NCBI RefSeq assembly: GCF_011682145.1
Contig: NZ_WHJH01000060.1
Location: forward strand, 1 to 40,578
From: Massilia mucilaginosa
GTDB taxonomy: Bacteria > Pseudomonadota > Gammaproteobacteria > Burkholderiales > Burkholderiaceae_D
Direction of reading: 5' to 3'
DNA: 40,578 nt
Under the pieces are notes generated by a model. The model saw nothing but the letters and a program-made list of their open reading frames with translations, searched no databases and had not been told where the DNA came from. Position numbers and translations under genes: made by a program. Each line of letters starts with the position of its first letter. The stretch's first letter is position 1. This document shows, one piece after another, positions 5,174 to 27,005 of this stretch.

Positions 5174-6529
5174 ATGTACAAACTCGTCTTGCCGTTAGCG
5201 ATTGCTGCGGCATTGGCCTGCCATGCGCAGGCTCAAACAACACCCTTTGCCATTGCGGCACCCGGCCCGATGAAGACCGCAACGCCCGGCATGCCTTTAC
5301 GGGCGCCAACGATGACGTCCGGCCAGCCGTCCTCTACGGCAATCATTCAGGCGTCCCCTGCCGGGGCACCGCTATTGCTGGCCGGCGCCCTGGCGCGCGT
5401 GCTGCAAGCCAATCCCGACCTGCGCGCAGGCGCGCATGAAATCGACGCCCAGGCCGGCGCCGTCATGCAGGCTGGCGTGGCCCCCAATCCGGAACTGGCC
5501 ACGCTGGTCGAAGACGCGCGCGCATCGGCCCGGACCACCACCGTCCAGCTCAACGTACCGATCGAACTGGGCGGCAAGCGCATGGCGCGCGTGAACGCCG
5601 CGCAACTTGGGCAGGATGCCGCCGGCGCCGAACTGGCCGTCAAGCGCAATGCCGTGCTGGCCTCGGCACGCGCCGCCTTTTACGATCTGCTCGCCGCCCA
5701 GCAGCGCCTGCACATCGCCAACGAATCGCTGGCCCTGGCCGATGGCGCGCTCGCCGCGGCGTCCAAGCGCGTCCTGGCCGGCAAGAATTCGCCGGTCGAC
5801 GAGACGCGCGCGCGCATCGCCGCCGCCAGCGTCAAGCTCGACCTGGCGCAAGCCGGCGGCGAACTGGCGGGCGCCAGGCAGCGCCTCGCTGCGCTGTGGG
5901 GCGGCAGCGGGCGCGATATCGGCCATGTGCAGGGACGGCTCGACCGTCTGCCGGCGCAGCCGACCCTGCCCCACCTGATGGCGCAATTGGACGCCGCCCC
6001 CGCGCTACGGCTGGCGCAGACCGAACTGGCGCGCCGGCAAGCGCTGGCGCAAGTCGAACGCGCCGGCCGCCTGCCCGACCTGACCGTCAGCATCGGCGCC
6101 AAGCGCGACCAGCAGGCGGGCCGCAACCAGGCGGTGTTTGGCCTGGCGATTCCCCTGCCCCTGTTCGACCGCAACCAGGGCAAGCTGCACGAAGCGTTGC
6201 AACGCGGCGAAAAGGCCCGCGTCGAGCTCGACGGCGCCCGCGCGCGTCTGACCAGCGAGCTGGCTCAGGCGTACGAAGCGCTGGCCGTCGCCCGTGAACA
6301 GGCCCGGCTGCTGAACGACGACATCCTGCCCGGTGCGCAAAGCGCCTACGAGGCCGCCCGTACCGGCTTCGAGTACGGCAAGTTCGCTTTGATCGATGTG
6401 ATCGACGCCCAGCGCACCTTGCTGCAAGCGCGCCTCCAGCACCTGCGCGCCCTGGCGGACGCCCATCGCGCTTGCGCCGACATCGACAGTATCCTCGGCG
6501 CCCATGGCGCCACCCAGACAGTGGAGTAA
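5174..6529 (+). CDS. czcC: Outer-membrane efflux protein, TolC family (CzcC-like)
   Basis: It forms the outer-membrane and periplasmic exit duct of the tripartite metal pump. The 451 residues begin with a signal peptide (cleaved near ACHAQAQ), then a linker rich in Pro, Ala and Thr. Two OEP-type alpha-hairpin repeats follow, with long Ala/Leu/Arg helices and beta segments such as TTTVQLNVPIELGGKR and VFGLAIPLPLFDRNQGK, which are typical of CzcC. The ATG at 5174 has AGGAG six bases upstream. The czcB start lies four bases beyond the stop codon, so translation is probably coupled. Confidence 0.9.
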   Translation: MYKLVLPLAIAAALACHAQAQTTPFAIAAPGPMKTATPGMPLRAPTMTSGQPSSTAIIQASPAGAPLLLAGALARVLQANPDLRAGAHEIDAQAGAVMQAGVAPNPELATLVEDARASARTTTVQLNVPIELGGKRMARVNAAQLGQDAAGAELAVKRNAVLASARAAFYDLLAAQQRLHIANESLALADGALAAASKRVLAGKNSPVDETRARIAAASVKLDLAQAGGELAGARQRLAALWGGSGRDIGHVQGRLDRLPAQPTLPHLMAQLDAAPALRLAQTELARRQALAQVERAGRLPDLTVSIGAKRDQQAGRNQAVFGLAIPLPLFDRNQGKLHEALQRGEKARVELDGARARLTSELAQAYEALAVAREQARLLNDDILPGAQSAYEAARTGFEYGKFALIDVIDAQRTLLQARLQHLRALADAHRACADIDSILGAHGATQTVE

Positions 6530-6532
6530 TGC

Positions 6533-11217
<4,685 letters not shown>

Positions 11218-22808: not shown

Positions 22809-22968
22809 TCTTAGGTAAGATGTGCTCCCGATAACTCACGCCCGACGTGTAAAAACATCCAAAATGTCGCAAATCAAAGCCGTTCCGCACCTGCCTTTGA
22901 CGCCGCGCAAAGTCGGTGCACTTGATGCAGGGTGCGTGAAGGGTGATGCCTATACTTCAGACAAAATG

Positions 22969-22999: not shown

Positions 23000-23027
23000 C
23001 TCGGGGAAATGCGCCGCATTTTCCGAG
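23000..23027 (+). promoter_or_regulatory. Second leader hairpin upstream of the CPAC peptide gene
   Basis: CTCGGGGAAATG (23000-23011) pairs with CATTTTCCGAG (23017-23027), using two G-T wobbles and one bulge. It begins five bases after the first hairpin and ends 25 bases before the AGGAG ribosome-binding site (23053-23057). Confidence 0.4.
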
Positions 23028-23066
23028 GGAACACACCAATCACCCACATCACAGGAGCGTCACGTT

Positions 23067-23327
23067 ATGGATACCAACGCCGTCGATCTGCGTACCACCC
23101 TGGCCGCACAAGCCGCCAACCGTAGCGTCAGCGTGTCGGTGCCGAGCCAGGAGTATTTCGACCTGGACCAGTTCCAGCGCGTCCAGAAAGCGTTGCTTGG
23201 CCAACTCGGCTGCCCGGCCTGCACCTCCGGCTTCGATATCCGCTACGGTATCCAGCGCCGTTTCATCGTCGACGCCAATCTGGGGGTGCAGGCAACCGGG
23301 CTGGCGCAAGACCAGTTCTCGCCCTGA
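23067..23327 (+). CDS. Small CPAC-containing peptide, candidate RiPP precursor
   Basis: The product has 86 residues with no signal peptide or membrane segment. A possible leader (about 1-45, polar, with FDLDQFQRVQKALLGQ) is followed by LGCPACTSGFDIRYG, with the only two cysteines at 49 and 52. A C-terminal part, RRFIVDANLGVQATG, ends QFSP. AGGAG lies nine bases before the ATG. The stop is one base before the ATG of a DUF692 enzyme, a family that modifies Cys, Asp or Asn residues of ribosomally made peptides in methanobactin, TglA, bufferin and similar pathways. I infer that this is the substrate, with Cys49/Cys52 or nearby residues modified. I do not recognise the peptide family, and a small accessory protein is the alternative. 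Confidence 0.6.
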   Translation: MDTNAVDLRTTLAAQAANRSVSVSVPSQEYFDLDQFQRVQKALLGQLGCPACTSGFDIRYGIQRRFIVDANLGVQATGLAQDQFSP

Positions 23328-23328
23328 C

Positions 23329-24759
23329 ATGCGCGACCTGCCCGAAGTGGGCGTCGGCATGGTGTGCCTGCCCGGTCTCGAAGCCTTCATCGAGGCCGCG
23401 CACGACCTGATCGACGTCATCGAAATCGAACCCCAGCCGCTATGGTTCAAGTCGGCGGCGGCCGGGGTGCCGTATGCGATCAATGCCGCCGCCCTGGTGC
23501 AGCTGTGCGCCGATCCGCATCCGAAGCTGGTGCATGGCGTCGGTTTTCCGGTCGGCGGCAGCGTGGCGCCCGAGCCGGACCAGGTGGCGCTGTTTGTCGA
23601 GGTGATCAGGGCGCTCGACGCTTGCTGGGCCAGCGAGCACCTGAGTTTTTCGCGGGTCGACGGCGCCAGCGGCGTATTCCATACCGGCTTCTTGCTCCCT
23701 CCCCTGCAAAGCGCGCAAAGCGTGGCGCTGGCCGCGTCCAACATCCGCGCCTTGGGCGCGCAATTGCCGGTGCCGTTCGCTGTAGAAACCGGCGTCAACT
23801 ATCTGCGCCCGCTCCCCGGCGAAATGTCGGACGGCGCCTTCTTCGGCGCCATTGCCGAAGAAGCCGATTGCGCCATCCTGCTCGACCTGCATAACCTGTG
23901 GTGCAACGAGCGCAATGGCCGCCAGGGCGTGCTGGAGGCGCTCGATGAGATGCCGCTGGAGCGCGTGTGCGAAGTCCATCTGGCCGGCGGCGACCATCTG
24001 GCCGGCTATTATCTCGACGCCCACTCCGGCCTGGTGCCGCCGGAGCTGATGCAACTGGCGCACACGGTGCTGCCACGGCTGCCCAATCTGAAAGCGCTCA
24101 TATTCGAGATCGTGCCCGCCTATATGCCGGCGCGCCCCATCGGCCAGGGCGAGCTGAAGGCGCAGCTGCTCGACCTGCGCCAGTTGTGGAACGAGCGCAG
24201 CAAGCGGCTTCAGGTCGCAAGCGGCACGCCGCGCGCGATCCCCCGGTCCATCACGGCCGCCGATAGCGCCTTGCCGTCGCCCACCGCATGGGAGCGCGCA
24301 CTGGCCGGCCGCGTGCTCGAATCCGAACCGGACGCGCCGTTCGCGCAGGTGCTCGATGCCGACAATGGCGTGGCCGTCTTGCGCCAGCTGGTGGCGGCGG
24401 TGCGCAGCGGGACCATTGTCGATTCGATGACGCTCAGTTACCGCCTCATCGTTCTCAGTCTCGGCGAGCCGGCATTCTTATCGCTGCTGCGGGCCTTCTG
24501 GAAAACCCGCCCGCCGGAACCGTTTGCGACCGAAGAAGCGCTCAATTTCGCCGAATTCCTGCGCACCCAGGCGCTCGCCATTCCGCATCTGGACGAGGTG
24601 CTGGCGTTCGAACTGGCATCGCACCAGGTGCGCATGTACGCCCAGCATAAAACCGTGCGCTTTACCTGTTCGCCGCTGCCGCTGCTGATGGCCTTGCGCC
24701 AGGCACGCATGCCCGACTTTGCCGATCATGGCGATTTTGCGCTGACGATCGAGCCATAG
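23329..24759 (+). CDS. DUF692 multinuclear non-heme iron oxidase (MNIO) fused to a DUF2063-like partner domain
   Basis: The product has 476 residues. Residues 5-290 form a DUF692 TIM barrel with the likely iron ligands in family positions: His69 (HGVGFPVGG), His104 (EHLSFS), Glu153 (VETGVNY), Asp186 (LLDLHNLWCN), His217 (EVHLAGGDH), Asp230 and His232 (YLDAHSGLV), and Glu260 (LIFEIVP). After a linker, about 320-476 resembles DUF2063 partner proteins (SLGEPAFLSLLRAFW, FAEFLRTQALAIPHLDEVLAFELAS), normally a separate gene that binds the leader peptide. A complete modifying unit may thus be in one chain. The ATG at 23329 has no ribosome-binding site and lies one base after the peptide stop, so it is translationally coupled. 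Confidence 0.82.
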   Translation: MRDLPEVGVGMVCLPGLEAFIEAAHDLIDVIEIEPQPLWFKSAAAGVPYAINAAALVQLCADPHPKLVHGVGFPVGGSVAPEPDQVALFVEVIRALDACWASEHLSFSRVDGASGVFHTGFLLPPLQSAQSVALAASNIRALGAQLPVPFAVETGVNYLRPLPGEMSDGAFFGAIAEEADCAILLDLHNLWCNERNGRQGVLEALDEMPLERVCEVHLAGGDHLAGYYLDAHSGLVPPELMQLAHTVLPRLPNLKALIFEIVPAYMPARPIGQGELKAQLLDLRQLWNERSKRLQVASGTPRAIPRSITAADSALPSPTAWERALAGRVLESEPDAPFAQVLDADNGVAVLRQLVAAVRSGTIVDSMTLSYRLIVLSLGEPAFLSLLRAFWKTRPPEPFATEEALNFAEFLRTQALAIPHLDEVLAFELASHQVRMYAQHKTVRFTCSPLPLLMALRQARMPDFADHGDFALTIEP

Positions 24760-26231: not shown

Positions 26232-27005
26232 TCAGCGCGGCTGGCGCCGTACCAGTTCGATTTCGAACAGCTTCGGCCACAGTTTGCCGGTGACGAACAG
26301 GCGCTTCTTCTTGCTGTCGTAAGCGATGCCGTTCAGGACATCGACCGCCCCGCTGGCGCGGCTCTTTTCATCAAGCAGGCCGGCCAGGTCGATCCAGCCG
26401 ACCACCTTGCCGCTGGCCGGGTTGATGCGCGCGATCACGTCCGAACCCCACACATTGGCATACAGTTCGCCGTCGACCCACTCCATTTCGTTGAGGCGGT
26501 CGATCGGTTTGCCGTCGGCCGTCACCTGGATGCGTCGCACTTCGGCCAGCGTCTTGGGGCTGAGCACCCGAATCACGGCGGTGCCGTCGCTCATGAAGAC
26601 CTCGGTGCCGTTATTGGCCAGGCCCCAGCCTTCGCCGGGATACGAAAAGGTCTGCTTCATCTTCAGCGTGGCCTTGTCGAACACAAAGCCGACGTGCGAG
26701 GTCCAGGTCAGTCCGACGATGGTGTTGCCGACATCGGTGATGCCTTCGCCGAAGTAGTCGGGAGCAATGTCGGTCTTCATCAGCACCTTGCCCGTTTTCA
26801 GGTCGGTCTTGCGGACCGAGGACTTGCCGTTCAGACCCGTGCTCTCGTACAAAACGCCATCGGTATAGAACAGGCCCTGGGTGAACGCGTCCGGATCGTG
26901 CGGGTAAGTATTTTTGACAAGGAAGCCGTACACGGGAATGGCAGCCTGCGCCGCACCGGCGCCCGCCAGCAGCAAACTGGCCGCCAATATGATCAATCTC
27001 TTCAA
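26232..27005 (-). CDS. Glutaminyl-peptide cyclotransferase (glutamine cyclotransferase, beta-propeller type)
   Basis: It converts N-terminal Gln of peptides to pyroglutamate, probably in the periplasm. The product has 257 residues, a signal peptide (to about residue 21, GAAQA) and a five-bladed propeller of the plant/bacterial QC type. Family segments include TYPHDPDAFTQGLFYTDGVLYESTGLNGKS, here listed by its ends only (TYPHDPDAFTQGL and YESTGLNGKS), YFGEGI, GEGWGLANNG, LNEMEWVDGELYANVW and LNGIAYD. The start codon is TTG (plus strand CAA at 27003-27005) with GAGGTG just upstream; no ATG lies in frame nearby. It is convergent with the lipoprotein gene and divergent from the acetyltransferase. 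Confidence 0.87.
   Translation of the reverse strand: MKRLIILAASLLLAGAGAAQAAIPVYGFLVKNTYPHDPDAFTQGLFYTDGVLYESTGLNGKSSVRKTDLKTGKVLMKTDIAPDYFGEGITDVGNTIVGLTWTSHVGFVFDKATLKMKQTFSYPGEGWGLANNGTEVFMSDGTAVIRVLSPKTLAEVRRIQVTADGKPIDRLNEMEWVDGELYANVWGSDVIARINPASGKVVGWIDLAGLLDEKSRASGAVDVLNGIAYDSKKKRLFVTGKLWPKLFEIELVRRQPR

Follow-up and report, generated by a model that had tools for sequence, protein, structure and literature searches.

The bufferin and oxazolin systems (BufABC and HvfABC) consist of a precursor, an MNIO enzyme acting on cysteines and a DUF2063 partner, and the conserved order of bufferin operons, as described in PMC12452194, places the precursor ahead of the MNIO. Their precursors carry a Sec signal peptide, the partner is a separate protein with a full recognition (RRE) domain, and DoxX is often present. 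Most MNIOs need a separate partner, and weak partner binding hampered work on HvfB. As described in PMC13419390, the partner in HvfB-HvfC is required for the Fe(II)/Fe(III) state, and an engineered HvfB-HvfC fusion showed more activity than HvfB and HvfC expressed together as separate proteins.

Cys precursors that lack a signal peptide and are encoded next to MNIOs with DUF2063-related partners have already been published (Antoine et al. 2025, PMC12452194). Within the adjamnio-1, -7 and -IV groups described there, a gene with a Cys motif (CxxC in -7, CxxCC in -IV) lies before the MNIO gene; adjamnio-1 and -7 have no signal peptide, and adjamnio-1, represented by a protein of Massilia sp. CF038, occurs with PME-type 2 partners. 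The partner is described there as a separate protein, and the descriptions of these loci mention no MNIO-DUF2063 fusion.

We analysed a window of 40,578 nucleotides, one contig (NZ_WHJH01000060.1) of the 7.7 Mb genome of Massilia mucilaginosa, where the gene of a small peptide with a Cys motif directly precedes that of an MNIO (Table 1). The arrangement is that of the adjamnio loci, likened by description only, but the partner is fused to the enzyme. The kind of unit, a signal-less Cys precursor with an MNIO and a DUF2063-related partner, is thus partly anticipated in print; what appears to be new is the one-chain enzyme, the two-Cys substrate candidate and a lineage-specific decay of the linked peptide. 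We found no description of a naturally occurring MNIO-DUF2063 fusion paired with a CxxC precursor in the accessible portion of the open-licence PMC literature. Our preferred reading, to which we give a probability of roughly 0.6, is a minimal two-gene RiPP-type unit of a cytosolic precursor and a fused maturase.

Table 1. Features of the candidate unit and its upstream region (positions in the window)
Feature	Position	Strand	Basis
CTTTG-N8-CAAAG dyad, possible operator or regulator site of the unit	22895..22912	.	conserved upstream stretch
TATACT, -10-like hexamer	22951..22956	+	read by eye; within invariant TGCCTATACTT run, 7 genomes
Weak near-palindrome, 5' untranslated region	23000..23028	+	folds as hairpin
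AGGAG, ribosome-binding site of the peptide gene	23053..23057	+	sequence
Candidate precursor peptide, 86 aa	23067..23327	+	ATG start, TGA stop; sequence
CPAC, residues 49-52, inside motif LGCxACxSGxDIR	23211..23222	+	likely modification site
Fused MNIO-partner enzyme, 476 aa	23329..24759	+	ATG start; PF05114 and DUF2063-like profile matches
MNIO (DUF692) catalytic domain, residues 1-290	23329..24198	+	PF05114; conserved ligand-type positions
Fast-evolving linker, residues 291-315	24199..24273	+	dN/dS
DUF2063-like partner domain, residues 316-476	24274..24756	+	profile comparison

The peptide gene and its coupling to the enzyme

An earlier note on this DNA had described an 86-residue peptide with two cysteines that ends one base before a DUF692 enzyme. 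Both reading frames were confirmed: C49 and C52, which spell CPAC, are the only cysteines, and a single base separates the peptide stop from the enzyme start (TGA-C-ATG), a spacing found in all four genomes inspected. No site comparable to the AGGAG of the peptide gene was seen ahead of the enzyme start in the window, which fits translational coupling; the enzyme probably relies for its own translation on that of the peptide.

When the upstream regions of seven genomes were aligned, both arms of the dyad and six of its eight middle positions were invariant, and the flanks nearly so; dyad and upstream signals are kept also in G148 and G181, whose peptides look decayed (see below). By eye, no -35 was seen at normal spacing to the TATACT hexamer. 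A regulatory RNA in the 5' region was discarded, as the fold was no more stable than shuffled sequences (z 0.56).

Alignment of seven peptides from six genomes, including both copies of the distant genome G425, gave 24 invariant columns, scattered over residues 8 to 72. C49, A51 and C52 are among them (P50 is T in G425), and S54, G55, D57, I58 and R59 show the same invariance as the Cys pair. The N-terminus has no hydrophobic stretch: with a Kyte-Doolittle proxy, the highest 15-residue mean was 1.1, at residue 66, whereas a bufferin-like control reached 2.0 at residue 8. This supports the claim that a signal sequence is missing, so that the peptide, with two Cys and no apparent signal peptide, contrasts with bufferins, which have a Sec signal peptide and 4, 6 or 12 Cys. 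Matches to YnfU (best E 0.013, five of seven members, under the cut-off) and to an HTH protein of solved structure (E 1.4) were too weak to be accepted as homology.

The fused enzyme and its relatives

The enzyme belongs to the MNIO/DUF692 family, matching PF05114 over residues 56-258 with 126.3 bits (cut-off 25). We take nine His, Asp, Glu and Asn positions, with partial support from papers, to be the MNIO iron ligands. The suggestion that all expected iron-ligand motifs are present held for eight of them: H69, H104, E153, D186, N189, H217, D230 and H232 match 63-66 of 66 other MNIOs column by column, whereas E260 is uncertain as the ninth, its column having E in just four of the 66 (the alignment lacks rows L047, L048, L049, L051 and L096, and the counts omit the window, L050 and L052). 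None of the NCBIfam MNIO equivalog models reached its cut-off, BufB giving 99.6 bits against 310 and ApyH, HvfB, ChrH and MbnB also falling below. The best solved relative by sequence is TglH (8hci, E 2e-15), followed by another DUF692 structure, 3bww (1e-14). TglH, of the TglH-TglI (3-thiaglutamate) system, shares DLHN and HLAGG with the window enzyme; compared with TglH-TglI and MovX, the Cys pair of the window peptide is internal, not C-terminal, and the fused domain is DUF2063-like.

A resemblance of the C-terminal region to DUF2063, also claimed in that note, remained under the Pfam cut-off (PF09836, 15.8 bits against 27.2, residues 322-411), yet stood well above the controls in hhalign. 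The profile of the region (A6, eight rows) scored 36.6 against ten bufferin-type DUF2063 partners (A7; probability 61%; reversed 16.9, top of 40 column shuffles 19.3) and 37.2 against two stand-alone partners of the split loci described below (A10; probability 70%; reversed 14.4, top of 60 shuffles 18.0). Against another long partner type (A8, three rows) it scored 17.3, no better than controls, and searches against solved structures gave no match up to E 10. At about 161 residues, compared with 260-271 in the ten bufferin-type partners, the region appears too short for a full RRE domain. It thus lacks both marks of PME-type 1, a Pfam DUF2063 match over the cut-off and a full RRE domain. Remote DUF2063 homology, no Pfam signature and a signal-less precursor agree at the sequence level with PME-type 2, for which the published criterion is structural.

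A 71-row MNIO tree, built without rows L048, L049 and L051, joined the fused enzymes in one clade (98/93), separate, at low resolution, from the enzymes found in Buf1 and Buf2 loci; the clade fell among divergent types (90/84) on long branches, its position poorly resolved. A different natural MNIO-linker-DUF2063 fusion, of 587 aa, was found in G510 (L030:1309-3072), directly after a precursor of the Buf2 type (named by eye). It groups with Buf2-type enzymes in the tree, suggesting a separate fusion event, and MNIO-DUF2063 fusions have probably arisen at least twice. This protein and the engineered HvfB-HvfC fusion described in PMC13419390 likewise hold MNIO and partner in one chain, but both are of bufferin/oxazolin type, unlike the window enzyme.

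Two further loci, in a genome of the same genus (G094) and one of the same family (G067), look like a split form of the plan seen in the window. Each has a signal-less peptide of 87-91 aa (L094:3142-3405 and L095:2876-3151, both on the minus strand), an unfused MNIO and then a short partner gene. The two cysteines of these peptides are likewise close together, with a TGFDL tail (GGCNCGLTGFDL versus LGCPACTSGFDI), and their partners are homologous to the fused C-terminal domain of the window; they differ in the separate partner gene and in having C-x-C instead of C-x-x-C. The peptides share a motif resemblance only, homology being rejected on a profile score (A1 against A9) of 15.1, against 14.9 when reversed and 16.2 for the top of 60 shuffles. 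In the class, the split-type peptide profile gave three matches, which sit in frames some 500 aa long and were taken as chance. The split loci may belong to the published adjamnio-1 family.

Co-occurrence, selection and peptide decay

The peptide was found in 7 of 294 genomes of the family, all seven in one genus; among near relatives at this locus, those with names are Massilia rubra, M. atriviolacea and M. aquatica. Seven of the 17 genomes of the genus have both the peptide and the full-length fused enzyme, and neither was found in the other ten, eight of which are at least 90% complete (the remaining two, 81% and 48%). In the class scan (369 genomes), the full-length enzyme appeared, among the matches listed, only in the window's genome and in G425, and in the phylum scan (398 genomes) only the window's own enzyme reached 1e-40. 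Both enzyme scans scored the best 4 first-look candidates per large genome, and the phylum peptide scan 13; with the matches of the class scan listed in part, absences here mean 'not found' and are not proof.

G425 is a distant gammaproteobacterium of another family, with the same gene order: two peptide genes in tandem (LGCTACCSGWDIRF), followed by a 494-aa fused enzyme, 41-42% identical. It is the only one of four genomes in its family with the fused unit, which follows a bufferin-type operon (MNIO 383 bits, DUF2063 78 bits; precursor without Pfam match, bufferin-like by eye) and precedes an FTR1 iron permease on the opposite strand. The metal context of the unit rests on this one genome. 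The stretch L046:7017-13407 of G425 comprises the bufferin-type operon, the two CxxCC peptides with the fused MNIO, and the FTR1 iron permease, which has cytochrome c domains, all adjacent to one another.

All nine confident peptide loci adjoin the fused enzyme (seven of the Massilia type, two of them decayed, and the two tandem copies in G425). Homologous peptides are therefore not commonly found without a DUF692 neighbour, as the pairing proposed earlier implies. The peptide thus shows the genetic association with a maturase expected of a RiPP precursor, both in the genus and in G425, though two of seven peptides look decayed. Purifying selection on the intact peptides and recurrence in a distant family indicate that the pairing is more than chance.

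Weak peptide matches outside the family (the phylum scan gave four, G017 one, and G148 and G159 together three, at E 0.25-0.84) were taken as chance; no MNIO was found in frames of at least 100 aa within 3-16 kb around them. The match in L059 is antisense to an RND gene (read by eye), and the rest are in unrelated frames, whether short or long. A 40-aa frame at L061:1501-1587 on the minus strand (CPNCCIGADVTFDL; CPNCCIGADVTFDLKRAF) resembles the peptide motif (E 0.006), with no MNIO in the surrounding 3 kb. A pattern search of viral contigs found nothing related to the profile of either the peptide or the enzyme. Among plasmids, the enzyme matched 299 records, none covering 80% of it, and neither one G425 peptide nor the L095 peptide had a match.

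Selection was estimated as Nei-Gojobori dN/dS for the 21 pairs formed by seven genomes. The enzyme gave 0.12-0.25 in all pairs, and its linker 0.30-1.49, compared with 0.03-0.29 in the flanking domains. For the peptide, the ten pairs of five genomes with an intact copy gave 0.22-0.45 (bootstrap upper limits 0.44-0.91 in the four pairs tested), and the 11 pairs including G148 or G181 gave 0.49-0.93. The two G425 peptides differ by 42.8 changes at 52.7 synonymous sites, which is saturated, so that their ratio of 0.09 rests on a capped dS; conservation is clear, its size is not.

The peptide gene looks decayed in these two of the seven genomes, while the adjacent enzyme is kept. The G148 copy (L011 / L014) has a four-base deletion near its start, causing a frameshift, and has lost its stop; it still spells CPAC, out of frame with the usual start, and was compared over residues 6-86 only. 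In G181 (L012 / L015), C52 is replaced by Trp. Peptide dN/dS was 0.85 for G148-G181 (bootstrap 95% interval 0.46-1.59), 0.71 for G192-G148 (0.40-1.43) and 0.93 for G192-G181 (0.50-1.75), near-neutral values but with wide intervals. By Fisher test, counts of changes differed between peptide and enzyme in each of these pairs (p 9e-8 to 7e-6) but not in the four intact pairs tested (p 0.2-0.79). A second peptide copy was not found, further matches being limited to two in G148 (E 0.25 and 0.84) and none in G181. The enzyme domains remain constrained between G148 and G181 (dN/dS 0.09 for the MNIO and 0.11 for the partner domain), with the ligand-type residues kept. This decay beside a selected enzyme speaks more strongly than any other result against a strict unit of one enzyme and one peptide, and in both genomes the enzyme presumably works on another substrate.

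Proposed mechanism and alternatives

For the binding and modification of the peptide, the residue and chemistry concerned, and the product and role of the unit, we infer the following scheme, whose step order and partner role follow HvfBC and MbnBC as described in PMC13419390. The peptide, either a small precursor in the cytosol or a small folded protein that serves as substrate, would be made first, and the ribosome finishing it would restart one base on, at the enzyme. The DUF2063-like domain would take the part of the separate partner, holding the peptide and helping to set the active iron state. The MNIO domain would bind one cysteine of CPAC at a mixed-valent di-iron centre, where Cys49 and/or Cys52 would be oxidised with O2, most likely to a metal-binding sulfur heterocycle. 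The product would probably be cytosolic and serve metal or redox balance. A naturally one-chain enzyme whose substrate has two Cys and no signal peptide would offer a compact system for studying the partner-set iron state and the choice of residue.

The decay in G148 and G181 bears on two other readings. The fusion may have outgrown its linked precursor and modify a second, unlinked and perhaps full-size cytosolic protein, the CPAC peptide being dispensable and decaying in one sub-lineage that fully retains the enzyme along with the domain that holds the substrate. We consider this unlikely; if true, the MNIO would be a protein-modifying enzyme of the cell and not a maturase of peptide natural products. 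Modification of other cellular proteins by MNIOs is raised as a possibility in PMC12452194, and G148 and G181 offer a handle on it. It is rather improbable, in turn, that the small protein is an accessory subunit (a thiol reductant, iron-delivery or stabilising factor) of an enzyme that modifies a protein encoded elsewhere. Strong selection on enzyme and partner domain despite a decayed-looking peptide would agree with this, as would the spread of invariant columns, which recalls a folded protein more than a leader plus core; but a required accessory would hardly be lost with the enzyme retained, and the tandem peptide genes of G425 and the position directly before the MNIO are precursor-like.

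Within the preferred precursor-maturase reading, the modified residue could lie outside the Cys pair, for instance at Asp57 or an aromatic residue near LGCxACxSGxDIR, with the cysteines serving metal binding or folding. The conserved Ser, Gly and Asp of the motif, as invariant as the Cys pair, could be targets, and MNIOs are stated in PMC13174530 to modify other residues too, among them Asp, Asn and Phe; Cys motifs, however, are held in PMC12452194 to be the likeliest MNIO targets in most groups, and we regard a non-Cys target as quite unlikely. That the upstream frame is a mere leader for coupled translation of the enzyme, as the frameshifted G148 frame still stopping just ahead of the enzyme start might suggest, is very improbable, given that the peptide is under purifying selection in five genomes and keeps an invariant motif in two families.

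Of the statement that neither an exporter nor a DoxX-type gene is nearby, the second half stood: DoxX had no match in the 26 window frames scanned, a subset of all that includes some antisense ones. The first half did not, as the window holds a tripartite RND efflux set at about 5174-11217; a link between it and the unit was rejected, since the genes ahead of the peptide differ among relatives. Three Oxalobacteraceae loci (L097, L098 and L099) have MNIO genes preceded by a membrane protein that resembles TIGR04222 by eye. Downstream of the unit, a convergent glutamine cyclotransferase gene (window 26232-27005, minus strand) is present in all six relatives with longer flanks and is probably merely a conserved neighbour.
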